A DNA stretch of 64,000 nucleotides, from assembly GCA_030145305.1 (NCBI GenBank), contig JAQYVX010000003.1, forward strand, positions 124,001 through 188,000, given 5' to 3'. The DNA is from Halarcobacter sp. (GTDB lineage Bacteria; Campylobacterota; Campylobacteria; Campylobacterales; Arcobacteraceae). The translations under genes were made by a program, and so were the position numbers. Position 1 is the stretch's first letter, and each line of letters opens with the position of its first letter. Positions 18,068 through 30,212 of this stretch are shown one piece after another. The notes beneath the pieces were generated by a model. It was not told the origin of the DNA, made no database searches, and saw only the letters and a list, made by a program, of their open reading frames with translations.

Positions 18068-21000
18068 TTATAAATCACAATCAGCCATTTCACCTTTTTT
18101 TCTTATAGCTAAAATATAAAAAATAGCTGGAATTATAATTAGAGTTAAAAATGCAGAAGATATCATGCCTCCAATCATTGGGGCTGCTATTCTTTGCATA
18201 ACTTCACTCCCTACTCCATTTATATACATAATTGGAATTAATCCTCCTAGAATAGCAAATAGTGTCATAAGTTTTGGACGTAATCTTAAAACTGCACCTT
18301 TATAAATTGCATGAAAAATATGCTCTTTTTCTATTTTGATTGCTTTTTGTTTTAATTCAAGCATTGCTTCATGTAAATAAACTAACATCACAATTGAAGT
18401 CTCAGCAGCAACCCCTAAAAGAGCTAAAAAGCCAACAATAACAGCGATTGAAATATTAAAGTTTAGAAAGTCCAAATAGAAGATTCCTCCTGTTAATGCA
18501 AAAGGAAGAGTGAAAAATATAATCATTGTATAAGTAAGATTTCTAAGTGCAAAATAAATTAAAATAAAGATAATAACAAAAGTTAAAGGAATAATATAAA
18601 TCAATCTTTGCATTGCTGATTCTAAATATTCACTCTGCCCTGCCCACTCATAATAAAAGCCATCAGGAAGCTTTATATCTTTTAAAAGTTCTTTCGCTTC
18701 ATCTTTATATTGTTTAGCAGAAATATCACTTTTTGGAGTGATATAAATAAAGTTTACATTTAAAGCTTTTTCAGATTTGATAACAGAAGGACCTTCTTCA
18801 TATTTTAAATTTGCAAACATTTGTAAAGGTTGAAAACCAAGAGCTGTTTTGATTTGCAAATTATTTAAAACTGTTATATCTTCTCTTTGCGTAGTTTCAT
18901 ACCTAAGACTAATTGGATATCTTTCTAATCCATCTATAAATGTAGATATTTTACTTCCTGCAACTCCTAAAGAAATAGTTGAAAGAACATCATTTTTTGT
19001 AATTCCATATCTTGAAAGTAATTCTTCTTTTACTTCTATATTTAAATAATAGCCAGAATTTATTTTATCAGTAGAGACTGAAAGTGTATTATCAAGAGTT
19101 TTTAATTTCTTTTCTATCTTTCCTGCTGTATCTTCTAAAACTTGATGGTTATTTCCATATAGTTTTATTCCAAGAGGTGTTCTAATCCCTGTAAGAAGCA
19201 TATCAATTCTTCCTCTTATTGGATAAGTCCAAGAGTTGATTAGTCCTGCAACTTGAAGTTTTTGATCCATCTCTTGCATAAGTTTTTTATAGGTCATTCC
19301 TTCCCGCCATTGGCTTTCAGGTTTAAAAGTAATAATTGTCTCAATCATTGCCAAAGGAGCTGGGTCTGTAGCTGTATCTGCTCGCCCTGCTTTTCCAAAG
19401 ACCGTTTGAACTTCTGGAAAGGATTTTATAATTTTATCTGTTTTTTGAGTTAATTCTTTTGCTAAATCAATTCCTAAACCATAAGGAGTTACAGGCATAT
19501 ACATAAAAGTATGCTCATTCATCATAGGCATAAACTCCCAGTTTTGTTTTTTATAAACTGGATATGCAAGAATTATTGTTGCTAAAAAAATCAGCACAAT
19601 TAAGTATCTAAGCTTTAAAGAGATTTTTAGTAAAGGAGAATATAAAGTAATAAAAAACTTATTTAATATATTTTTATCTTCTCTTAGAAGTTTTCCTTTT
19701 ATAAAAAATACCATAAGAATTGGAACAAGGGTAATAGATAATATTGCTCCACTTATCATTGCAAATGATTTAGTAAAAGCTAAAGGAGTAAATAATCTTC
19801 CTTCTTGTCCTGTTAAGGCAAAAATTGGCAAGAATGAAACTACAACTAACATCAATGCAAAGAAAATTGGACGCCCTACTTGTTTTGCTGATTTTAAGAT
19901 AATTTTAACACGTTCTTCATTTGAGATATTTTCTTTACCTTGAAGATATTTATGAGCATTTTCTACCATTACAATTGTGGCATCAACCATAGCTCCAATT
20001 GCAATTGCAATTCCTCCTAGACTCATAATATTTGAACCCATTCCAAAAGCTTTCATTAGAAGAAAAGTAATTAAAACAGTAAGTGGAAGCGTAATTATAA
20101 TAATTAATGCAGACCTAAAATGAAATAAGAATAAACCTGTAATAATCATAACAATAATAGATTCTTCAATAAGTGTATTTTTAAGTGTATCAATTGCTTT
20201 ATCAATAAGTGAAGATCTATCATATGTTTCAATAACTTCAACACCTTCTACTTTTAGAGTTTTGATTTTTTCTTTTACAGCTTTTATAACAGAATATGGA
20301 TTTTCTCCATATCGTACAACTACAATTCCTCCAACAGTATCGCCTTGTCCATCTAAATCTGCCATTCCTCTTCTATTTGTTGAAGTAATATTAACTTGAG
20401 CAATATCTTTTATTTTTAAAGGAATAGTTTCATTTGTTTTAACTGTAATATTTTCAATATCAACAACACTTTTTAAATATCCTTTGGCTTGAATCATGTG
20501 TTCAAAACCATTTTCTAAAATAATTCGTCCACCCTTTTCATCATTGTTTTTCACAATTGCATTTTTAACTTCTTGAATACTTATATTATATTGAACTAGT
20601 TTATCTTGATTTAATGTTATTTCATAATTTTTTATAAAGCCACCAATAGAGGCAATTTCACTAACCCCATCAACACCTAATAAAGCATATTTATAATAAT
20701 AGTCTTGTAAAGTTCTAAGTTCATCAAGTGATTTTGTATCAGATTTAAGTGCATATTCATAAGCCCAACCAACTCCTGTTGCATCTGGTCCCATTGAGAC
20801 ATCAACGCCAGAAGGGAAACTTCCTTGTAAAGAAGAGAGTTGTTCTAAGATTCTATTTCTTGAATCATAAAGATCTGTACCATCTTTAAAGATAATATAT
20901 ATCAAGGCATTTTGAAAAGAACTCATAGCTCTTACTGTATCAATATTTGGCAAACTCATTAAGTTTGAAATAAGAGGATAAGAAACTTGTTCTTCAATTG

Positions 21001-21178
21001 TACTAGGACTTTGACCAGCCCATTTAACTTGCACAATAACCTGAGGTGGAGAAAGATCAGGTAAGGCATCTAAGCTTGTATTTTTAACAGCCCAAAAAGA
21101 AGCAATAGATAAAACAAGAATAGAAAAAAGAATTAAAAATTTCTTTCTTATACTATATGAGATTATATTTTCTACCAT
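18068..21178 (-). CDS. cusA: Heavy-metal RND efflux pump, CusA type (Cu/Ag)
   Basis: A 1036-residue inner-membrane proton-driven pump of the HME-RND family. The N-terminus (VENIISYSIRKKF) and the TM4 signature GAMVDATIVMVENAHK are typical. The three methionines that relay Cu(I)/Ag(I) in E. coli CusA (573, 623, 672) are conserved at M561 (YMP), M611 (APLAM) and M660 (RIDM), with identical spacing of 50 and 49 residues. This supports monovalent copper or silver rather than zinc or cobalt. It is the last gene of fixH-like > cusC > cusB > cusA, 13 bases after cusB. Confidence 0.93.
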   Translation of the reverse strand: MVENIISYSIRKKFLILFSILVLSIASFWAVKNTSLDALPDLSPPQVIVQVKWAGQSPSTIEEQVSYPLISNLMSLPNIDTVRAMSSFQNALIYIIFKDGTDLYDSRNRILEQLSSLQGSFPSGVDVSMGPDATGVGWAYEYALKSDTKSLDELRTLQDYYYKYALLGVDGVSEIASIGGFIKNYEITLNQDKLVQYNISIQEVKNAIVKNNDEKGGRIILENGFEHMIQAKGYLKSVVDIENITVKTNETIPLKIKDIAQVNITSTNRRGMADLDGQGDTVGGIVVVRYGENPYSVIKAVKEKIKTLKVEGVEVIETYDRSSLIDKAIDTLKNTLIEESIIVMIITGLFLFHFRSALIIIITLPLTVLITFLLMKAFGMGSNIMSLGGIAIAIGAMVDATIVMVENAHKYLQGKENISNEERVKIILKSAKQVGRPIFFALMLVVVSFLPIFALTGQEGRLFTPLAFTKSFAMISGAILSITLVPILMVFFIKGKLLREDKNILNKFFITLYSPLLKISLKLRYLIVLIFLATIILAYPVYKKQNWEFMPMMNEHTFMYMPVTPYGLGIDLAKELTQKTDKIIKSFPEVQTVFGKAGRADTATDPAPLAMIETIITFKPESQWREGMTYKKLMQEMDQKLQVAGLINSWTYPIRGRIDMLLTGIRTPLGIKLYGNNHQVLEDTAGKIEKKLKTLDNTLSVSTDKINSGYYLNIEVKEELLSRYGITKNDVLSTISLGVAGSKISTFIDGLERYPISLRYETTQREDITVLNNLQIKTALGFQPLQMFANLKYEEGPSVIKSEKALNVNFIYITPKSDISAKQYKDEAKELLKDIKLPDGFYYEWAGQSEYLESAMQRLIYIIPLTFVIIFILIYFALRNLTYTMIIFFTLPFALTGGIFYLDFLNFNISIAVIVGFLALLGVAAETSIVMLVYLHEAMLELKQKAIKIEKEHIFHAIYKGAVLRLRPKLMTLFAILGGLIPIMYINGVGSEVMQRIAAPMIGGMISSAFLTLIIIPAIFYILAIRKKGEMADCDL

Positions 21179-21191
21179 AATTTATTTCCTT

Positions 21192-22196
21192 TTACCAGTC
21201 TGTATCATCATCTTGGTTATAAAGACCATTTGTAATGGCATCCGAATCTAGTAAGAAAAGTGCATTATTTATAACAGTTTGACCCTCTTCTAGTCCTTCT
21301 AAAATTTCATATTTATTTGATGAGATTCTTTTTGCTTCTATTTCAATTGCTTCAAATTCAGTTTCAGATAAATGTTGGAAAACAAAATATTTAGAACCTT
21401 TTGTTAAAACAGCAGTTTTAGGTAAAGTCAATCTCTCTTTTGATATTGCTTTTAAACTCACCTTTGCAAACATATTTGGATAAAGCTTCAAATCTTTATT
21501 AGGAATTATAAATCTTACATCAACAGCTTTTGTTTTTAAATCAACATTTGGGTAAATCATATCAACTTTTGAATCAATTGGATTTTTTATTCCATCAATA
21601 TAAATTTTAGCTTTCATATCTTTTTTTATAAAAGCCAAATCTTTTTGATAAACTGAAGCAATAAACCAAAGTTCATCTAAAGATGCTAGTTGAAGTAAAA
21701 GTTGACCTTTTTTTACATAACTTCCTTTATTTATTTTTTTTTGTAAAATAATTGAATTTATTGGAGAAAAAAATGGAAGGCTAGTTATCGTTTTATTTGA
21801 AGATTTTATCTTTTTAATTATTGAAGAGTTTATGTCCAAAGATTTTAATTTTTCAATATTACTACTTACTAATGATTTATTATATTTCTTTGCAACATGA
21901 ATCTCTTGTTGAATTGAATTTACTTCATCTGAATAAATTGTAAAAAGTAAAGATCCTCTTTTTATTTGTTTATATTGTTCATTTGCATATAAATTTGTGA
22001 TATATCCATCAAATCTAGTCACAATATCATAAATTTTTGTCTCATTCAAAGCAGTAGTTCCATAAAAGCTTTTTAAGCTACCTATTTGCTCTTTTTCTAC
22101 TTTGACGAGCTTTTTATTGAACAATTGCGAAACTTCAAGAATTTGAGCATTTAGTATTGTAAAGCCTATTATTAGGGAGCTTAGTAGTAGTTTCAT
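21192..22196 (-). CDS. cusB: Efflux RND periplasmic adaptor, CusB type
   Basis: A 334-residue membrane-fusion protein that should link CusA to the outer-membrane channel. It has a signal peptide (1-17), a barrel-sandwich half (KRGSLLFTIYSDEV and INKGSYVKKGQLLLQLASLDELW), a short helical hairpin and a beta-barrel/membrane-proximal part. It is clearly shorter than E. coli CusB, and the mature N-terminus (AQILEVSQLFNKK) lacks the three metal-binding methionines of that protein. The neighbouring Met-rich FixH-like protein may supply metal handling instead (inference). It overlaps the channel gene by four bases. Confidence 0.87.
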   Translation of the reverse strand: MKLLLSSLIIGFTILNAQILEVSQLFNKKLVKVEKEQIGSLKSFYGTTALNETKIYDIVTRFDGYITNLYANEQYKQIKRGSLLFTIYSDEVNSIQQEIHVAKKYNKSLVSSNIEKLKSLDINSSIIKKIKSSNKTITSLPFFSPINSIILQKKINKGSYVKKGQLLLQLASLDELWFIASVYQKDLAFIKKDMKAKIYIDGIKNPIDSKVDMIYPNVDLKTKAVDVRFIIPNKDLKLYPNMFAKVSLKAISKERLTLPKTAVLTKGSKYFVFQHLSETEFEAIEIEAKRISSNKYEILEGLEEGQTVINNALFLLDSDAITNGLYNQDDDTDW

Positions 22197-23404
22197 TTTA
22201 TTTCCTTAGTATAATAGCTAGATTTTGCAAGAGTATTAAAATAATTCTCTTTTTCCGCAAGCACTTTTAATTTGTATTTTATAATTTCATTAAAATTATT
22301 TATTAAAGATTTCGAATCTATATTTGTAGATGAGAAAGAGTTATAAGTTTCTAAAACTTTTTGCAGTTGATTGTATTTTGGAAGAATATCTTTTTTAATA
22401 ATATTTAAAGTTATTATAGAATCTTCTATATTTTGTTGATAAGTTTTGATTTGATTTTTAAAAGTTAATTTTATATCTTCTAATTTGTGATTTGTTTCAA
22501 TTTCATTAAATTTTGCTTTTTTAGATTTTATATCTTCTTTTCCATAAACAGACAAAGGAATTGCAAAACTTAGGTTTGCATAATCTTTATATTTGTTATC
22601 TCTTTGAAAATAAGTAAGAGAAACTTTTATATCAGAGTTCTTTTTCTCTTTTTCTAGCTTTGAAAGATTATCAAATTTCTTAGAAACTTGCATTAAAGAT
22701 AAGATTTTTGGATGGGAATCAATATTCAAAGAAAGTTGAATATTTTTTATATTTGTATCAATATCAATATTTTCTATTTTTTCATAAGTGATTTGTTCTA
22801 GTCTTAAAGTTATTGTATTTAAAAGTGTTTTTAATTTTTGAGATTTTAAATTGAGTTCTTGCTGCATAATTTGAGCATTCAAAATTTGTGCTTGGTTTGC
22901 TTTATTGAATTTATAAAGCTCTTTTAGTAAATTTTCTAGATTTAAAGTATTTCTTTTAAACTCTTCAAATAAAGATAATCTTTCTTTTAATAGTTTAATA
23001 TTATAAACATATTCGTATATTTTTGCTCTATATTGTAGTTTTTGTTCTTCTACTAAATATTTTGATATTTGATAATCATTTCTTGCGATTTTTTCCGAGA
23101 TTTTTAATTTGTCACCTAAAGGAATACTTTGAGTAATTCCTACAAATGCGGCTTGCATAGGTTCTAAATCCCTTCTTGTTACCTCATCAAACTGAATATC
23201 TGTTAATCCAAAACTAAGTGTTGGATTTGTCCATTTTGAAGATAATTCTATTTCTTGTTTTGCAACTTTTATAGATTCTTCCAATGCTTTTAAAGTATAG
23301 TTTTTATTGTAAGTGTTTTCTACAATACTACTTATTGTTTGTGCATTTAAAAAAGAAGTAGTTACAAAAAAAAGTGAAAAAAGTAGAAGAGATTTTTTGA
23401 ACAT
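22193..23404 (-). CDS. Outer-membrane efflux channel, TolC/CusC family
   Basis: A 403-residue exported protein with a signal peptide (1-21, LNAQ). Two long helical repeats and short strand pairs follow, as in TolC-family outer-membrane factors (TNPTLSFGLTDIQF in the first half, SDIKVSLTYFQRDNKY in the second). It should form the exit duct of the tripartite Cu/Ag pump. It lies nine bases after the FixH-like gene and overlaps cusB by four. Confidence 0.85.
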   Translation of the reverse strand: MFKKSLLLFSLFFVTTSFLNAQTISSIVENTYNKNYTLKALEESIKVAKQEIELSSKWTNPTLSFGLTDIQFDEVTRRDLEPMQAAFVGITQSIPLGDKLKISEKIARNDYQISKYLVEEQKLQYRAKIYEYVYNIKLLKERLSLFEEFKRNTLNLENLLKELYKFNKANQAQILNAQIMQQELNLKSQKLKTLLNTITLRLEQITYEKIENIDIDTNIKNIQLSLNIDSHPKILSLMQVSKKFDNLSKLEKEKKNSDIKVSLTYFQRDNKYKDYANLSFAIPLSVYGKEDIKSKKAKFNEIETNHKLEDIKLTFKNQIKTYQQNIEDSIITLNIIKKDILPKYNQLQKVLETYNSFSSTNIDSKSLINNFNEIIKYKLKVLAEKENYFNTLAKSSYYTKEIK

Positions 23405-23413
23405 AATATTATC

Positions 23414-23824
23414 CTATAAGTTTACACTTGATCTAATTTTATGAACTTTTCCATCTGCTGTTTTAAACATTAAATGAAATTGCCACGTTCCGCTCATTGA
23501 AAGATTAATCAACATTTTGTATTTGCCATCAATTAATTTTGCTTTTCCCACATATTCCATATATGGCATTCCTGGCATTTCAGGCATAAAGAATTTTGCT
23601 TTTACTTTTGCATTTGTAAGTTCTTTTCCATCTTTTGTTAATGTAACAAAAAAATAATTATCTCCTACAACTAAAGATTTCTTTGAATAAAAATGTGCTT
23701 GATATCCATTTTTATCTCCTTTTAAATCAATTGCTTGAGCATTTAAAAGACCAAAACTTAAGGCTAAAATACAAACTAGTTTAAGTAAGCTACCCAAAAA
23801 TGGGATTTTGTTATGTTTTTGCAT
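23414..23824 (-). CDS. Met-rich FixH/YtkA-like periplasmic protein
   Basis: A 136-residue exported, probably signal-cleaved or anchored, protein (hydrophobic 10-30). The rest is a small beta-sandwich like FixH/YtkA. In its centre methionines recur every third residue: M80, M83, M86 and M89 in FMPEMPGMPYME, a pattern suited to Cu(I). It is the first gene of the cus operon, with a strong AGGAG before the ATG. A periplasmic copper chaperone or sensor-side binder taking the place of CusF is a reasonable inference, not shown by sequence alone. Confidence 0.72.
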   Translation of the reverse strand: MQKHNKIPFLGSLLKLVCILALSFGLLNAQAIDLKGDKNGYQAHFYSKKSLVVGDNYFFVTLTKDGKELTNAKVKAKFFMPEMPGMPYMEYVGKAKLIDGKYKMLINLSMSGTWQFHLMFKTADGKVHKIRSSVNL

Positions 23825-23897: not shown

Positions 23898-25046
23898 TTA
23901 AAAGATAAAAGTAAAAGTAGTACCCTCTTTTACTTTAGATTGTACATCAAATTTTATGTCATAGGATAAACAGATATTTTGAACAATATTTAAGCCAATT
24001 CCAAAACCTCCACTATCTTTTGTAGCTCTAAAATATCTATTGAAGATATCTTTGATTTTATCTTCTGGTATTCCAATACCTGTATCTTTTATTGTAAGAG
24101 TGTTGTTTTTTAAACTTATATTTATTGTTCCTGCTTTTTTATTGTATTTTATTGCATTTGATAGGATATTATTAAATAATCTAGTGAAATCATTTTCATC
24201 TATTAAGTATTTGAAATCTTCTAAGTCTGTGATTATTGTTATTTTCTTTTTTTCTGCTAAGGCTTCAAAATATCTTAGTTGTTCTTTGATAACTTTTTTA
24301 AGTAAGATTTCTTTTAAATCTATTTTTTCTTCCCTATCTTCTAAAAATATATATGTCAAGTCTTTATATATCTCTGAAATTTTATGAGCTGAGAGTTTTA
24401 TTCTTTCTATTTGCTTTTTTGTTAAATCTTTATTCTCTGCTGACATTAAAATAGCACTTATTGGAGTATTTAACTCATGGGTAGTATCTTTTATAAAGTT
24501 GTTTAGTTTTTCTCTTTCATCTTTAATTGGTTTTAAAAATAGTTTTGCAAGGAAAAAACCAATAAGTGAAAGAATAGAGAAAATGATTAAAAATAGAATA
24601 ATAATTTCATTTTTTAAAGTATTGATTGTTTTAAAAAATAGGTTTTCTTTTATGGCAATATAGTAAATGCCCAAATGTCCATATGTAGAGTCATCAACTA
24701 AAATAAAGTTTCTTTTTTCTTTGATAATTTTCTTAGAAAAATCTATTTTATCTTTTAGGTTCCCTACTATTACATTTTTATTTTCATCATAAAAAGAAAT
24801 TTTATAAATATCAGTTTTTAAAAATTGCTCTAAATTTAAGCCTTTGTTACTCATATGTGAAAAGATGATTTGGGAGGAAATATTTGAAACAACATTTTGC
24901 ATTTTTGTTTTTGTTAAATCAAAATAGAGTTTTTTTTCATTTTGGAAATATAATAAAGCAATAAGAGTCATTAAAATAAATGAAGCGCCTATATATAGTC
25001 CAAAAAATCTAAAAAAGGTTCTTTTCTCACTTTGTGTTAAATCTAT
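23898..25046 (-). CDS. Sensor histidine kinase 1 of the copper island (probable AUA start)
   Basis: A membrane kinase with TM1 (about 12-32), a periplasmic sensor of about 115 residues, TM2 (about 147-171) and a HisKA/HATPase core. The phosphoacceptor is H190 in DTTHELNTP; the N box is NNILSNAIKYN, and ATP-lid motifs are DTGIGIPE and GGFGIGLNI. The first in-frame ATG (24971) would delete most of TM1. Between the upstream TAG and that ATG there is no ATG, GTG, TTG or CTG. ATA at 25046 has GGAG six bases upstream and yields an N-terminus matching the paralogous kinase, so I place the start there (382 residues). It lies just upstream of the cus operon. Confidence 0.82.
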   Translation of the reverse strand: MDLTQSEKRTFFRFFGLYIGASFILMTLIALLYFQNEKKLYFDLTKTKMQNVVSNISSQIIFSHMSNKGLNLEQFLKTDIYKISFYDENKNVIVGNLKDKIDFSKKIIKEKRNFILVDDSTYGHLGIYYIAIKENLFFKTINTLKNEIIILFLIIFSILSLIGFFLAKLFLKPIKDEREKLNNFIKDTTHELNTPISAILMSAENKDLTKKQIERIKLSAHKISEIYKDLTYIFLEDREEKIDLKEILLKKVIKEQLRYFEALAEKKKITIITDLEDFKYLIDENDFTRLFNNILSNAIKYNKKAGTINISLKNNTLTIKDTGIGIPEDKIKDIFNRYFRATKDSGGFGIGLNIVQNICLSYDIKFDVQSKVKEGTTFTFIF

Positions 25047-25136: not shown

Positions 25137-25796
25137 ATGAAAATATTATTACTTGAAGACGATACTTTATTAAATGAGATAATAGAAGAGTTTTTAGAAG
25201 ACCTTAACTATGAATATGTCTCAACTTCAGATGGGCAAGAGGCCTTAGAAGCTATTTATGAAGAGCATTTTGACTTATTACTTTTAGATGTAAATGTACC
25301 CTCTTTAAACGGCTTTGATTTATTAAAGAATTTAAAAGAAAATAAAATAGATATTCCTAGCATTTTTATAACTTCTCTTCATTCTTCAAAAGATATGGAA
25401 AAAGGTTTTAACTCTGGGGCTGATGATTATATTAAAAAGCCATTTCATCTAAGTGAATTAGAGCTTAGAATTAATAATATAAAAAGATTAAGACAAATTG
25501 ATACCTCAGGAATAATTCACTTAAACGAAGAAGTCTCATATAACTATGATACAAAGTTTGTATCTTTAAATGAAGTAGAAACTCATTTGTCAAAAACTGA
25601 AACAAAAATATTTGAATATTTTATAAAAAATAAAAATAGAACAATTTCAATAGAAGAAATATCTCTAAACAATTGGATTTATGATGAAGTTCCAACTGCT
25701 ACAACCATAAGAACTTATATAAAGAATTTACGAAAAATATTAGGAAAAGATAGTATTACAACTATAAAAGCTATTGGATATAAATTAAATTTATAA
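25137..25796 (+). CDS. OmpR-family response regulator 1 of the copper island
   Basis: A 219-residue regulator. The receiver has the acidic pair D8-D9, phosphoacceptor D51 in LLLLDVNVP and Lys in IKKPF; the C-terminal winged helix ends with TTIKAIGYKLNL. It is a clear paralogue of the regulator at 26944-27603, with equal length and near-identical start MKILLLEDD. It is divergent from kinase 1, an unusual layout for an OmpR-type pair. It probably activates the adjacent Cu/Ag efflux operon, given the shared direct repeat (inference). Confidence 0.9.
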   Translation: MKILLLEDDTLLNEIIEEFLEDLNYEYVSTSDGQEALEAIYEEHFDLLLLDVNVPSLNGFDLLKNLKENKIDIPSIFITSLHSSKDMEKGFNSGADDYIKKPFHLSELELRINNIKRLRQIDTSGIIHLNEEVSYNYDTKFVSLNEVETHLSKTETKIFEYFIKNKNRTISIEEISLNNWIYDEVPTATTIRTYIKNLRKILGKDSITTIKAIGYKLNL

Positions 25797-25811: not shown

Positions 25812-26963
25812 TTAGAACTTTAGAGTAAAAGTTGTTCCTTCTTTTTCAATTGATTCTACTTCAATTTGAATATTATAGGTTTTACAAATATGATAAGCAA
25901 TATTTAGCCCTATTCCAAAACCACCTTGGTCTTTTGTAGCTCTATAATATCTATTAAAAATATCCTTTACTAACTCTTTTTTTATACCAATTCCCGTATC
26001 TTTTATAATAAGTGTTTTATTTTTTAGCTCTATATCTATAGAGCCACCAATTTTATTGTATTTAATGGCATTTGATATAAGATTGTTAAATAATCTTATA
26101 AAGTTTTCTTTTTCCATTTCAAAACTTGTAGCTTCAATATTTGAAGTAATTGTTAATTTCTTTTTACTTGCAAAAGCTTCAAAATAATCAAGTTGAACAG
26201 CAATAATTTTATCTAATTGCAGAATAGAAGACCTAGGTTCATTTTTATTCTCATGTAGGAATAGATAAACTAAATCTTTATATATCTCTGAGATTCTTTT
26301 TGCACTAAGATTTATTCTTTGCATATTTTTTGCAGTTAAAGGAGAATCTTTACTTGTACTCATTAAAATCGCTGTAATAGGAGTATTTAACTCGTGAGTG
26401 GTATCTTTTATAAAGTTATTGAGTTTTCTTCTTTCATTTATAATTGGAGCTAAGAATAGGTCTGCTAAATAGTAACCTATAATTGCAATTATAGAATAAA
26501 TTATTACAAAATAGAAGATAGACTTTTCTATTAAAGAAGTAATTTTATCTTTAAAAATATTTTCTCTAATAACAATATGATAAACACCCAAATGTCCTCT
26601 TGGCGTTCCATCTACAAGAATATAAGTATCATCAATCTTTTGAATTCTTTTTGTCAAATCTATATCTTCTTTTATATTTCCTGCTAACTTATTGTGCTTA
26701 TTATCATAAAGGGCATAATCATATTGAATATAGCTTGCTAGTTTAGTGGTATTAATTGTAAGTTTAGACATATGTGCATAAATGATGCTTGAAGAGATTT
26801 TAGAAGCTACATTTTGCATGTTTGATGTAACTAAGTCATATTGTAATTTTGACTCAATTTTGTAAAAAAGCCAAAAGATTACTAGTAATAGAATAAAAGA
26901 TGATCCTAAGTAAAGACCAAAAAACCTAACAAAGGTTCTTTTCTCACTTCTTGTTAAATCTAT
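25812..26963 (-). CDS. Sensor histidine kinase 2 of the copper island (probable AUA start)
   Basis: A paralogue of kinase 1 with TM1 (about 12-30), a periplasmic loop, TM2 (about 148-171), H190 in DTTHELNTP, an N box (NNLISNAIKYN) and ATP-lid motifs (DTGIGIKK, GGFGIGLNI). The first ATG (26819) would remove TM1 entirely, and no ATG, GTG or TTG lies in frame before it. ATA at 26963 has GGAG six bases upstream and starts (M)DLTRSEKRTF, matching (M)DLTQSEKRTF of kinase 1. With these starts both proteins have the phosphoacceptor at residue 190. The start overlaps the end of its regulator gene by 20 bases, so translation is probably coupled (383 residues). Confidence 0.82.
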   Translation of the reverse strand: MDLTRSEKRTFVRFFGLYLGSSFILLLVIFWLFYKIESKLQYDLVTSNMQNVASKISSSIIYAHMSKLTINTTKLASYIQYDYALYDNKHNKLAGNIKEDIDLTKRIQKIDDTYILVDGTPRGHLGVYHIVIRENIFKDKITSLIEKSIFYFVIIYSIIAIIGYYLADLFLAPIINERRKLNNFIKDTTHELNTPITAILMSTSKDSPLTAKNMQRINLSAKRISEIYKDLVYLFLHENKNEPRSSILQLDKIIAVQLDYFEAFASKKKLTITSNIEATSFEMEKENFIRLFNNLISNAIKYNKIGGSIDIELKNKTLIIKDTGIGIKKELVKDIFNRYYRATKDQGGFGIGLNIAYHICKTYNIQIEVESIEKEGTTFTLKF

Positions 26964-27603
26964 ATCCTACTCCTTTTATAGTTTCAATATACTCTTCGCC
27001 TAATATTTTTCTTATATTCTTAATATAGGTTCTAATAGTTGAAGACGTTGGCGCTCCTTCATATGACCAGATATTAGAGCTTAGTTCATCTTGTGAAACA
27101 CATCTATTTGTATTACTTAAAAGATATTTTAAAATCTGAGCTTCTTTTAATGGAAGTTTTGTTTTATTTGAATTCTTTTCTATATAATTTAGTTTTGTAT
27201 TAAAGCTTATATTCTCATCAATTTTTAATTCATCTTCTTCAAGATGTAAAAGTCTTTTTATATTGTTTATTCTTAATTCTAGTTCTTTTAATTCAAAGGG
27301 TTTTTTTAAATAATCATCAGCCCCAGAGTTAAATCCTTCTTCAATATCTTCAACAGAGTTTAAAGAAGTAATAAATATAGCTGGAGTTGTTATATTGTTT
27401 TCTCGTAAGCTTTTTAAAAATTCAAAGCCTGTCATATTTGGTACATTTACATCTAAAATCATTAAATCAAATTGTTCGTCGTAAATTACTTCACTAGCTT
27501 TCATTCCATCATATACGGATACGACTTTGTATTCTAGGGATTCTAAAAATTCTTCTATAATTTCATTAAGTATTAGATCATCTTCAAGTAGTAGTATTTT
27601 CAT
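26944..27603 (-). CDS. OmpR-family response regulator 2 of the copper island
   Basis: A 219-residue regulator with D8-D9, phosphoacceptor D51 in LMILDVNVP and LKKPF in the receiver, and a C-terminal winged helix ending in GVGYRFNKK. A longer frame runs upstream to 27696, but the ATG at 27603 matches the paralogue's MKILLLEDD start and is preferred. There is no Shine-Dalgarno; a TATACT box ends seven bases before the ATG, so a leaderless mRNA is likely here too. It forms an operon with kinase 2 and is divergent from the YceI gene. Confidence 0.9.
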   Translation of the reverse strand: MKILLLEDDLILNEIIEEFLESLEYKVVSVYDGMKASEVIYDEQFDLMILDVNVPNMTGFEFLKSLRENNITTPAIFITSLNSVEDIEEGFNSGADDYLKKPFELKELELRINNIKRLLHLEEDELKIDENISFNTKLNYIEKNSNKTKLPLKEAQILKYLLSNTNRCVSQDELSSNIWSYEGAPTSSTIRTYIKNIRKILGEEYIETIKGVGYRFNKK

Positions 27604-27712
27604 AAAAACAAGTATATCATATAATAAAAAAAGTGTATATATAGCTTCTACACAATGACTTAACAAAATTCTATTAAAATTTCCATATATAAACAAAATA
27701 AGGAGTAAAAAA

Positions 27713-28291
27713 ATGAATTTTTTGACAAAAATTATTACAGCATCTGCTTTAACATTTTCATTAGCAAATGCAACACCTCATACTTTAGATAATGCACACT
27801 CAGAAGTTGGCTTCAAAGTTAAGCATTTGATGATTACAAATGTAAAAGGTGAATTTAAATCATATACAGCTGATATTGATTTTGATTATAAAACTAAAAC
27901 ATTTAATAAATTAAATGCAAAGATTGAAACAAAATCAGTAGATACCGGAATTGAAAAAAGAGATAATCACTTGAAAAGTGAAGATTTTTTCCTATCAGAA
28001 AAATATCCTCTTATGACTTTTAATATGAAATCATATAAGGCTGATGGTGATGAAGGCGAAATGACTGGTGATTTAACAATAAGAGGAGTTACAAAAGAAG
28101 TAAAACTCGAAGTTGAAGATTTAGGTACAGTAAAAGATTTTGAGGGAAATAATAGAGTTGGATTTACCTTAAAAGGTAAAATCAATAGAATTGATTTCGG
28201 TTTAAAATGGAATAAAGCTCTTGAATTTGGTGGTATAGCAGTTGATGAAACAGTTAAACTTGAAATAGAGATTGAAGCAGTAGAGAAATAA
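27713..28291 (+). CDS. YceI-family periplasmic protein
   Basis: A 192-residue exported protein with a signal peptide (1-20, SLANA). It shows the YceI lipocalin-like barrel: HTLDNAHSEVGFKVKHLMIT at the mature N-terminus, KSVDTGIEKRDNHLKSEDFF in the middle and GFTLKGKINRIDFGLKW near the end. Members bind isoprenoid-like or amphiphilic ligands. A strong AAGGAG precedes the ATG. It lies 75 bases before the RiPP precursor; whether it belongs functionally to that cassette is unclear. Confidence 0.9.
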   Translation: MNFLTKIITASALTFSLANATPHTLDNAHSEVGFKVKHLMITNVKGEFKSYTADIDFDYKTKTFNKLNAKIETKSVDTGIEKRDNHLKSEDFFLSEKYPLMTFNMKSYKADGDEGEMTGDLTIRGVTKEVKLEVEDLGTVKDFEGNNRVGFTLKGKINRIDFGLKWNKALEFGGIAVDETVKLEIEIEAVEK

Positions 28292-28366: not shown

Positions 28367-28681
28367 ATGAAAAAAAATACTAAAATTAAATTAGCAGGGA
28401 TTCTTTTAGGTGTGGCATTATCAAGTACTGGTGCATATGCAGCAGGTGGTTCATGCGGTGCTGGTAAATGTGGTAGTGATATGAAAAAAGTTGAGAAAAA
28501 AGGTTCATGTGGCGCTGGTAAATGTGGTAGCGATATGAAAAAAGAAACTAAAGAAATGACTGGAACTGCTGGTAAGAAAAAAATGGCAGGTTCGTGTGGT
28601 GCTGGTAAATGTGGTGCTGATATGAAAAAAGATGCTAAGAAAAAAGTTGAAGGTTCATGTGGCGCTGGTAAATGTGGATGA
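28367..28681 (+). CDS. MNIO-modified RiPP precursor with four GSCGAGKCG repeats
   Basis: A 104-residue secreted peptide: signal peptide 1-25 (cleavage after AYA), then four copies of GSCGAGKCG at 28-36, 46-54, 75-83 and 96-104, separated by Lys/Glu/Met linkers (three repeats are followed by S/A-DMKK). All eight Cys (30, 35, 48, 53, 77, 82, 98, 103) lie in the repeats. This matches the HvfA/bufferin class, whose KCG-type Cys are converted by an MNIO enzyme into heterocycles that bind copper. The next two genes encode the expected enzyme and partner. AAGGA precedes the ATG. The repeats are also conserved as near-identical 26-base DNA units, suggesting growth by duplication. Confidence 0.88.
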   Translation: MKKNTKIKLAGILLGVALSSTGAYAAGGSCGAGKCGSDMKKVEKKGSCGAGKCGSDMKKETKEMTGTAGKKKMAGSCGAGKCGADMKKDAKKKVEGSCGAGKCG

Positions 28682-28699
28682 AACGGGGAAGATGAGTAA

Positions 28700-29521
28700 A
28701 TGATAAACATTAAAGGCTGTGGATTAGGTCTACGAAGCGATTTTTTATTAGATGTTAATAAGAGTGATTTCCAACCAGATTGGTGGGAAGTTACTCCTGA
28801 GAATTGGATGCATATGCCAAAAATCTATGAAAAAGCATTTGAAGAAGCGGTTTTTTCAAGACCTACCCTTGCTCATGGTTTATCATTATCAATAGGTTCT
28901 GCTGATAAATTAAATAAAAAGTTTGTGAAACAAATTAAAACTTTTTTAGATAGATATAATATTAAACATTATTCTGAGCATCTTTCTTTTTCTTCTTTTG
29001 AAGGAAAACAATCTTATGAATTATTACCTGTTCCAATGACTAAAAAAATGGTTCAAATAATAAGTGATAGAGTGAAAGAAGTTGAGGATATTATTCAAAG
29101 AAATCTGATTTTAGAAAATGCAACTTATTACTATGTACCCTATTCTGAAATGGCTGAGGTAGACTTTATAAACGAAGTTTTAGAAAAATCAGGGGCTAAA
29201 ATGCTTCTTGATGTAAATAATGTCTTTGTAAACTCTGTAAATCATACTTTTAAAGCAAGAAAATTTATTGATGAAATTGATAAAAGCAAAGTAGCTTATA
29301 TGCATATGGCTGGACATTATTCGGATGAAGATTCTGGTCTTAAAATCGATTCCCATGGTATGCCAATTTGTTCTGGGGTTTGGAAACTTTTAGAATATAC
29401 TTTAAAACAAATAAATGCTCCTGTTATGATTGAACGTGATAATAATATTCCTCCTTTGGAAGAATTAGCTAAAGAGTACAAACAAATGAGTGAAATTGTA
29501 AAAAGAGTTCAACGTGGCTAA
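28700..29521 (+). CDS. MNIO (DUF692) RiPP-modifying oxidase
   Basis: A 273-residue TIM-barrel multinuclear iron oxidase. Family ligands and motifs are intact: GCGLGLRSDF, EVTPENW, H59 in AHGLSLSIGS, E93-H94 in SEHLSF, LLPVP, E139-N140 in LILENATYY, D171 in LLDVNNVFVN, H202 and H206 in YMHMAGH, D217 and H219 in IDSHG, and E245 in IERDNNIP. By analogy with MbnB and HvfB it should oxidise Cys in the upstream precursor. It starts 18 bases after the precursor stop with GGGGAAG nearby, and overlaps the partner gene by eight bases. Confidence 0.93.
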   Translation: MINIKGCGLGLRSDFLLDVNKSDFQPDWWEVTPENWMHMPKIYEKAFEEAVFSRPTLAHGLSLSIGSADKLNKKFVKQIKTFLDRYNIKHYSEHLSFSSFEGKQSYELLPVPMTKKMVQIISDRVKEVEDIIQRNLILENATYYYVPYSEMAEVDFINEVLEKSGAKMLLDVNNVFVNSVNHTFKARKFIDEIDKSKVAYMHMAGHYSDEDSGLKIDSHGMPICSGVWKLLEYTLKQINAPVMIERDNNIPPLEELAKEYKQMSEIVKRVQRG

Positions 29522-30212
29522 ATATAGTTTAGAAAAAAATATAGAAAAAAGATTTTTTGATAATCTTCTAAATCAAGAAGAAGGTTTTGAAAATACAGCA
29601 ATAAATGTATATCAAAAACTTGTCCTAATAAGATATATAGAAGTTATAAAAAATAGTTTCCCTTTATTTATAGATGAAATATCTCAAAATAAATTAGAAA
29701 AAAGTGTAAAAGCTTTTATGAAAAATAGTCCTAAAACACCTTTTGTCTGGCAAATACCAAATGAGTATAGAAAGTTTGTAAAAAAAGCTAAACTTTTTGA
29801 TGATAAAAAATATCTATATGAACTTATGTATTATGATTGGATAGAGATAGAAATTTATATGAAAGAGTATAAATTTAAAAAACAAAAGAAGTTTTCATAT
29901 AAAGAAAAATATATTTTATCAAAAAGTGCAAGAATCAAGAGATTTAAATTTGACATTATAAACAAAGAGTATAAAACAAAAAGAGAAAATTTTGTAGCGA
30001 TTTATCAAAATTTTAAAACTATAGATGTAGTTTATAGAGAGATAAATCAGTTAATTTTTTTAATACTTAAAAGAATAAATAAAAAACAATCTTTAAGTGA
30101 TGTCCTAAAAGAAATATGTAAAGAAAATGAACTTGATTTCAAAGAGGCAAAGACTCTTTTAGAAGAGCCTTTTGAAGAACTTTTTTTAAATAAAGTTTTA
30201 ATAGTTAACTAA
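29514..30212 (+). CDS. DUF2063/HvfC-type partner of the MNIO enzyme
   Basis: A 232-residue protein. The N-terminal half matches the DUF2063 pattern: AINVYQKLVLIRYIEVIKNS, FPLF, then VKAFMKNSPKTPFVWQIPNEY and LYELMYYDWIEIEIYM. The C-terminal half resembles the winged-helix-like module that, in MbnC/HvfC-type proteins, recognises the precursor leader. It overlaps the MNIO gene by eight bases, so the two are probably made in equal amounts and act as a complex. It is Lys-rich and diverged, but gene order makes the assignment firm. Confidence 0.85.
   Translation: MAKYSLEKNIEKRFFDNLLNQEEGFENTAINVYQKLVLIRYIEVIKNSFPLFIDEISQNKLEKSVKAFMKNSPKTPFVWQIPNEYRKFVKKAKLFDDKKYLYELMYYDWIEIEIYMKEYKFKKQKKFSYKEKYILSKSARIKRFKFDIINKEYKTKRENFVAIYQNFKTIDVVYREINQLIFLILKRINKKQSLSDVLKEICKENELDFKEAKTLLEEPFEELFLNKVLIVN

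Follow-up and report, generated by a model that had tools for sequence, protein, structure and literature searches.

The window analysed here is a 64,000-nucleotide stretch of a Halarcobacter sp. genome (Arcobacteraceae, Campylobacterota) and forms part of contig 18 of a 3.03 Mb assembly. Three consecutive genes in it encode a cysteine-rich precursor of a ribosomally synthesized and post-translationally modified peptide (RiPP), a multinuclear non-haem iron-dependent oxidase (MNIO) that would serve as its maturase and a partner protein (Table 1). These genes very probably constitute a captophorin/oxazolin-type cluster, i.e. the HvfA–HvfB–HvfC kind in an Arcobacteraceae form, the product of which would be an exported peptide that sequesters copper or silver. 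Assignment to the gene family is supported by a curated HvfA-family model that the precursor passes, by matches to solved structures and by conserved synteny. The kind is already known and, judged by sequence comparison, the Arcobacteraceae form is a lineage variant in its precursor, enzyme and leader.

Precursor, maturase and partner protein

A first-pass annotation of the window had described a signal peptide followed by four identical GSCGAGKCG motifs holding all eight cysteines, an MNIO with intact ligand motifs and a DUF2063 partner, in tightly spaced genes. This arrangement is borne out, with 18 bases between the precursor and MNIO genes and an 8-base overlap between the MNIO and partner genes. 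The motifs begin at residues 28, 46, 75 and 96 of the 104-residue precursor and contain all of its cysteines; they had been called evenly repeated, which is wrong, as their spacing is irregular (18, 29 and 21 residues). At the DNA level every pair of copies differs (by 1 to 3 of 27 bases), yet the nine encoded residues are identical, so the motif is held at the level of the protein. Random shuffles of the 79-residue mature region (n = 20,000) contained at most two CG...CG pairs, as 13 of them did, compared with the four observed. By inspection and comparison with relatives, the Sec signal peptide comprises residues 1–25, with likely cleavage between AYA and AGG.

The precursor passes the NCBIfam model NF050137 (HvfA-family KCG repeat domain; 40.5 bits, cut-off 19.5). 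It has no match in Pfam, and so no DUF2282 (Buf1) domain. None of the eight cysteines lies in an EGKCG pentamer, the actual contexts being xGSCG and AGKCG. The motif does therefore differ from EGKCG as the first-pass annotation stated, but it still passes the HvfA-family repeat model and, from the sequences of relatives, is a mark of the Arcobacteraceae lineage and not of this one locus. The placement of the last motif at the very C-terminus is likewise correct but not distinctive, 17 of the 31 precursors of the Arcobacteraceae clade defined below ending in CG.

The MNIO matches PF05114 (294 bits), its best NCBIfam model is HvfB (NF003818) and it aligns with the structure 3bww (E = 3.6 × 10−50), which is said to be 72% identical to HvfB (PMC13419390). 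With the bufferin maturase model the score falls short both of that for HvfB and of the model's own cut-off (252.6 versus 310 bits), and the MbnB model TIGR04159 gives 46.5 bits against a cut-off of 325. Three residues reported to be needed for HvfB activity, Asn175, Asp242 and His244 (PMC13419390), correspond in an alignment read by eye to Asn173 or Asn174, Asp217 and His219. Like a number of His, Glu and Asp residues, they are kept in at least 97% of a 104-row alignment (duplicates included, two partial rows left out of the count). The nearest relatives of the enzyme (78–90% identity) come from Arcobacteraceae and other Campylobacterales (Arcobacter sp., Poseidonibacter, uncultured Campylobacterales and others).

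The best NCBIfam model for the partner is HvfC. The protein falls just under the Pfam cut-off for DUF2063 (24.9 versus 27.2 bits) and also misses that for the NGO1945 C-terminal domain. A 17-row partner profile nevertheless has 3dee (NGO1945) as its sole match in the PDB (E = 1.5 × 10−13), and 3dee is also the first structural match (TM score 0.67/0.77) of the AlphaFold model (mean pLDDT, the predicted local distance difference test score, 87.6). Two TglHI chains follow, and these are the only three matches with E < 0.001; further down come MbnABC (E = 0.03), some GdmN entries that look unrelated, and PqqD (E = 0.26). NGO1945 is described as a typical partner combining DUF2063 with a RiPP recognition element (RRE) (PMC12452194). 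The profile and fold matches thus uphold the DUF2063 assignment, and the partner is predicted to be of PME type 1, with a DUF2063-like helical domain and an RRE-type domain.

Antoine et al. describe a group termed Buf_EGKCG/oxazolins (PMC12452194), and Gadgil et al., who report that fontiphorin, oxazolin and gonophorin contain 5-thiooxazoles, suggest calling such peptides captophorins (PMC13097082); captophorins/oxazolin (HvfA–HvfB–HvfC, FonABC, gonophorin and bulbicupramide) are the Buf_EGKCG/oxazolin group. The present cluster shares with them the Sec signal peptide, the CG...KCG pairs, the closest MNIO subfamily, the DUF2063–RRE partner and the gene order A–B–C. It differs in having GSCGAGKCG in place of EGKCGEGKCG and an enzyme with Ser and Asn in place of Arg16 and Phe250, in lacking the NPF...GYM segment of the mature leader, and in having no DoxX gene found in the cluster (DoxX being frequent but not universal in captophorin/oxazolin clusters) and a linked two-component system. 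For one type a regular 17-residue repeat and a β-helix model are reported (PMC12452194), whereas the present repeats are irregular and the model of the precursor is unstructured; a β-helix is unsupported here (AlphaFold mean pLDDT 42.8 from a 15-row alignment). The bufferins Buf1 (DUF2282) and Buf2 are likewise exported MNIO-modified Cys peptides with PME-type-1 partners, and are reported in copper stress (PMC12452194), but the present precursor has no Pfam match and the enzyme misses the bufferin maturase cut-off. Methanobactin (MbnABC) has in common the MNIO fold and a partner protein (matches to 7dz9, weak for the partner), but is a short leader–core peptide in contrast to the signal peptide and repeats seen here, and the MbnB cut-off is missed. 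The family assignment, to Cys peptides of the HvfA/oxazolin type that are modified by an MNIO and exported by Sec, is supported by NF050137, the structure matches and synteny.

No published description of the Campylobacterota form was found among the matches listed, although figures and supplements may hold such a variant. The terms epsilon, campylo, arcobac, two-component and histidine kinase are all absent from the main text of PMC12452194, as are epsilon, campylo, AGKCG, SCGAG and two-component from that of PMC13097082; the variant may nevertheless be present in the data sets of these papers. A search for literature linking thiooxazole, a two-component system and copper returned nothing.

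Variation of precursor and enzyme among relatives

The Campylobacterota sample consisted of 77 loci (duplicates included), of which 73 had an MNIO open reading frame (ORF) and 52 were distinct. L121 yielded no MNIO ORF. The Arcobacteraceae clade comprises 31 loci on one tree branch with support 100/100. The precursor comparisons omit L088, which has no precursor, and L101, the precursor of which has one Cys; L106 is in neither Campylobacterota count, being of the Ser type yet outside the 31-row branch. For comparison, 50 Pseudomonadota-type loci (L015–L064) were used, and 10 without a recognisable Lys-Cys precursor were dropped from the precursor counts. Among the 40 kept is L059; its chosen ORF is extended upstream and alone lacks the signal-peptide motif discussed below.

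A multi-Cys precursor lies upstream of the MNIO gene in 50 of the 52 distinct Campylobacterota loci, directly in 49 and with DoxX between in L106. The first-pass annotation had set the pairing of orthologous enzymes with a different precursor as its own refutation; instead, 31/31 clade enzymes pair with this precursor type. Of the 31 clade precursors, 22 have eight Cys, five have ten, two have seven and two have six. The conserved synteny makes it very improbable that the precursor is an unmodified Cys-rich metal binder and that the MNIO acts on another substrate, a reading that can appeal to the modification itself being only inferred, but that sits poorly both with the 50 neighbouring pairs and with the genome under study, in which the single PF05114 gene and the single precursor locus lie side by side.

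The 125 Arcobacteraceae pairs have Ser (96), Ala (25), Gly (3) or Thr (1) before the first Cys and never Lys, Lys before the second Cys in every case and Ala-Gly-Lys between the two in 114. In the other Campylobacterota Lys precedes the first Cys in 35 of 41 pairs and Ala-Gly-Lys lies between in 26; the corresponding figures for Pseudomonadota-type precursors are 75 of 78 for Lys, with Glu-Gly-Lys between in 57. From these sequences the pattern looks like a two-step one, in which Glu was lost in the Campylobacterota and then Lys before the first Cys in the Arcobacteraceae. All 252 Cys counted in the 31 precursors of the clade have Gly as the next residue.

In FonB, Arg15, Arg16 and Phe250 have been tied to substrate choice and Asp249, the catalytic base, to catalysis (PMC13097082; Gadgil et al.). 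Alignment to 3bww, which has Arg-Arg and Asp-Phe at these positions, and to relatives places Arg12, Ser13, Asp247 and Asn248 at the positions of Arg15, Arg16, Asp249 and Phe250, respectively, so that two of these substrate contacts (Arg15 and Asp249) are kept and two (Arg16 and Phe250) are changed. Asn occupies the Phe250 place in all 52 distinct Campylobacterota enzymes. Ser occupies the Arg16 place throughout the 31-locus clade and in L106, the precursor of which is also of the SCG type; elsewhere this place holds Glu, Asn, Asp, Lys or Thr in five enzymes (L065, L066, L088, L101 and L109) and Arg in the remaining 15. The 50 Pseudomonadota-type loci have Phe (49) or a gap (1) at the Phe250 place, and Arg (48), Gln (1) or a gap (1) at the Arg16 place.

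The strictly different contexts of the paired cysteines in the clade (Ser, Ala, Gly or Thr against Lys in 125/125 pairs, where Pseudomonadota-type pairs are Lys-first in 75/78), together with the change at the Arg16 place in the same clade and the report that FonBC modified some variant double repeats only once (PMC13097082), would fit a half-modified peptide in which the MNIO acts on the Lys-Cys-Gly cysteine only, the Ser-Cys-Gly cysteine stays a thiol and the metal sites are mixed thiooxazole–thiol ones. This alternative is considered unlikely: FonBC accepts Ala, Arg or Thr at the Lys position and has no strict requirement for a Glu preceding Cys (PMC13097082), which makes both SCG and AGKCG plausible substrates, and all six Cys of bulbicupramide (PMC12538549) and the six repeat Cys of oxazolin (PMC13419390) are reported to be modified.

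A joint change of precursor and enzyme is suggested by the sequences. Among 50 loci, loss of Arg16 and a residue other than Lys before at least 40% of the Cys occur together in 32, the enzyme trait alone in 3, the precursor trait alone in 4 and neither in 11; with a basic residue three positions before any Cys as the precursor trait, the counts are 27, 8, 1 and 14. The association amounts to one large clade and one separate case (L106). Enzyme–substrate co-evolution as such received no support from a tree-aware test, there being too few independent changes and several counter-examples: the enzyme trait changes at least four times on the tree, which was built with the trait columns still in the alignment, and the two to four independent pairs give a median sign-test p of 1. 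The counter-examples are L109, in which Arg16 is replaced by Thr and Lys-Cys is retained, and L027 and L033, in which the motifs are mostly without Glu and Arg-Arg-Phe is retained. L106 itself has a divergent MNIO (55% identity) in which Ser occupies the Arg16 place, has the gene order precursor–DoxX–MNIO–partner and shares the SCG/AGKCG motifs; it is a possible second origin of the paired changes, its place on the tree being unsure owing to a long branch. Two further loci look decayed or orphaned: in L101 a one-Cys precursor adjoins an enzyme that has Lys where FonB has Arg16, and L088 has an MNIO–partner pair without a precursor beside a gene that, as recognised from its sequence, is presumably hemB-like.

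The signal peptide as a candidate leader

All 40 recognised Pseudomonadota-type precursors have a GY[MLQIV] segment (typically NPF...GYMVA) between the signal peptide and the core. A match is found in only one of 50 Campylobacterota precursor ORFs (L091), where it lies upstream of the likely start of the signal peptide. The signal peptides of both groups carry an LG-type motif, [LIVM]LG[ASTV] in 50/50 Campylobacterota precursors and the looser [LIVMA]G[STA] in 39/40 Pseudomonadota-type precursors; in control signal peptides the loose pattern (V allowed) occurs in 0/15 for TolB, 0/13 for LolA and 2/21 for YceI. From the residue preceding the Gly of this motif to the first Cys the distance has a median of 16 residues in Campylobacterota (16–21, 50 loci) and of 44 in Pseudomonadota-type precursors (37–96, 39 loci).

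Within the genus (15 genomes, gaps counted) the precursor signal peptide has a mean pairwise identity of 0.815, more than its own mature region (0.58), compared with 0.416, 0.417 and 0.482 for the signal peptides of TolB, LolA and YceI in the same genome pairs; mature TolB and YceI have identities of 0.74 and 0.73 despite their low signal-peptide values. The precursor exceeds the control in 103/105 (TolB), 76/78 (LolA) and 90/91 (YceI) pairs. In this comparison the precursors were trimmed to the likely start Met and the controls were untrimmed, with gaps counted as differences, which lowers the value for TolB. When the count was confined to columns occupied in 80% of rows and gaps were disregarded, the values were 0.82–0.83 (0.829) for the precursor and 0.470, 0.429 and 0.482 for TolB, LolA and YceI, so the result stands. 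Across 21 loci from several genera the signal-peptide identity is 0.70 for the precursor and 0.42 for YceI.

As no mature leader segment is present and conservation of the signal peptide is unusually high, the latter is probably the whole leader, i.e. an export signal that would also act as an enzyme docking tag. HvfA without its signal sequence is reported to be poorly modified (PMC13419390), and preliminary data on Buf1 indicate that the signal peptide is part of recognition (PMC12452194). Counting against a strict reading of this kind, no single pre-core residue was required in a shortened FonA (PMC13097082). How an MNIO modifies its precursor before Sec removes it is described as unsettled (PMC12452194). 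A fuller proposal, the prospects of which seem evenly balanced, is that Campylobacterota use the Sec signal peptide as their entire leader, the partner reading KLAGxLLGAAL and the same 25 residues first docking the maturase and then routing the peptide to the translocon, and that in Arcobacteraceae the Ser-Cys and Lys-Cys sites are chemically distinct substrates read by an enzyme without the Arg16 and Phe250 of FonB.

Genomic setting and proposed function

The precursor is preceded by a YceI-family gene and, divergently, by a two-component system; farther upstream lie a second such system, the gene for a YtkA-like protein that has a Met-rich stretch, and an efflux operon of the CusCBA type (Table 1). 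The segment 18068–25796, next to the cluster, is likely to be a metal-response island.

Table 1. Features of the cluster and its surroundings (window coordinates)
Feature	Coordinates	Strand	Remarks
RiPP precursor, HvfA-family	28367–28681	+	104 aa; 8 Cys, four GSCGAGKCG motifs
Signal peptide segment	28367–28441	+	Conserved KLAGxLLGAAL; proposed to double as leader
MNIO maturase, HvfB-like	28700–29521	+	273 aa
Partner protein, HvfC/PME type 1	29514–30212	+	232 aa; GTG start
YceI-family periplasmic protein	27713–28291	+	Upstream of precursor; PF04264, 150.6 bits
OmpR-type response regulator RR2	26944–27696	−	Divergent from YceI–precursor; likely cluster regulator
Sensor histidine kinase beside RR2	25812–26819	−	
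OmpR-type response regulator RR1	25137–25796	+	Paralogue of RR2
Second sensor histidine kinase	23898–24971	−	
YtkA-like protein	23414–23824	−	Met-rich FMPEMPGMPYM; PF13115, 74.3 bits; secreted by N-terminus inspection
CusCBA-type metal efflux operon	18068–23404	−	About 7.5 kb from cluster
CusA/CzcA pump	18068–21178	−	TIGR00914, 1015.7 bits (cut-off 701)
Efflux adaptor	21192–22196	−	PF16576
Outer-membrane efflux protein	22193–23404	−	PF02321

The longest ORF of RR2 begins with TTG, and an internal ATG would give 219 residues. As in some relatives, the frame of the adjacent kinase stays open upstream across a membrane-helix segment, which would not be included from any ATG, GTG or TTG start. Translation may begin at a rare start codon, or the kinase may have been called too short. 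A MATE transporter gene lies downstream of the partner gene on the opposite strand. The genome has three YceI-family genes, all on contig 18, of which one only adjoins the cluster. DoxX was not found in the cluster or in the Arcobacteraceae clade loci examined, and has two matches elsewhere in the genome. The window contains no Rfam family and no tRNA, and a promoter and terminator scan was uninformative (10 promoter-like sites with 17.3 expected; 1 terminator-like site with 0.6 expected).

RR2 and its kinase are divergent and upstream in 13/13 further loci of the genus, with YceI between RR2 and the precursor in 12; in the other (L150) YceI is missing and the precursor adjoins RR2. Among other Campylobacterota genera, eight loci (L123, L131, L134, L135, L137, L138, L139 and L146) carry a response regulator and kinase downstream of the cluster and co-directional with it, six of them after DoxX; other loci have neither. 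In a quick tree of 81 regulators, supported by the Shimodaira–Hasegawa-like approximate likelihood-ratio test only, one branch of 35 (support 98) holds 30 of the 39 near-cluster regulators left after a length filter, both regulators of the window and only three of the 40 other OmpR-type regulators of this genome. Of the nine near-cluster regulators outside this branch, five are located roughly 3 kb beyond the start of the MNIO gene and four are on the other strand. L131 has regulator–kinase pairs on both flanks of the cluster, and both regulators fall in the RR1/RR2 branch.

The CusA/CzcA pump is the sole such pump over the cut-off in each of 16 genus genomes, including G014, which has no MNIO. 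Among the 13 genus genomes with pump and MNIO on the same contig, the distance is below 15 kb in seven, below 30 kb in eight and 63–82 kb in five. PF05114 matches occur in 28 of 397 genomes drawn from the phylum (26 over the cut-off); the proportions are 37/104 in the family and 15/16 in the genus. The CusCBA operon and the nearby paralogous two-component systems support, but do not prove, a role in copper or silver handling.

The most probable mechanism is as follows. The partner would hold the precursor by its signal peptide through the RRE-type domain, and the iron-dependent MNIO would oxidise Cys in the Ser-Cys-Gly-Ala-Gly-Lys-Cys-Gly pairs, in all likelihood each of the eight, giving 5-thiooxazoles with a loss of about 4 Da apiece. 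For the mature peptide cleaved between AYA and AGG the calculated monoisotopic mass is 7653.6 Da in the reduced form, which would become 7621.3 Da after eight such losses and 7637.5 Da after four. The peptide would then be exported by Sec and its signal peptide removed, leaving a disordered periplasmic peptide whose sulphur ligands, up to eight in number, could sequester copper (or silver) ions. Metal stress probably turns the cluster on through the adjacent two-component system, along with the CusCBA-type pump. That the peptide might instead be a chalkophore or serve some other metal or redox stress is improbable, somewhat more so than half-modification; the adjoining YceI, and DoxX in relatives, may hint at envelope or oxidative stress and gold-induced operons exist in the family (PMC12452194), but no TonB receptor or importer was seen among the neighbours scanned, which do not include every ORF of the window, and the neighbours that are present include an efflux pump and the YtkA-like protein with its Met-rich stretch.

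Several points weigh against a captophorin/oxazolin-type, metal-sequestering cluster. Three equivalog cut-offs are missed (HvfA, NF050188, 22.7 versus 95 bits; HvfB 315 versus 360; HvfC 74.6 versus 142). The specificity residues of FonB are changed, which makes the transfer of its substrate rules uncertain; FonBC is reported to have modified the double variants AKCGA, GKCGT and NVCGG only once and to have failed with Arg three residues before Cys (PMC13097082), and 42 of the 252 clade Cys, one of them in the present precursor, carry Lys at that position. Proximity to the Cus operon is not universal, the pump lying 63–82 kb away in 5/13 genomes and on another contig in 2/15. The chemistry and the metal binding are both inferred.

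The most useful point of the locus is that the precursor has no mature leader segment and an unusually conserved signal peptide. With little else left as a leader, this lineage would make the idea of a signal peptide as leader testable in a minimal natural system. It also supplies natural variants of enzyme and substrate at positions linked to specificity by published mutants, and the linked two-component system offers a handle for finding the inducing metal.

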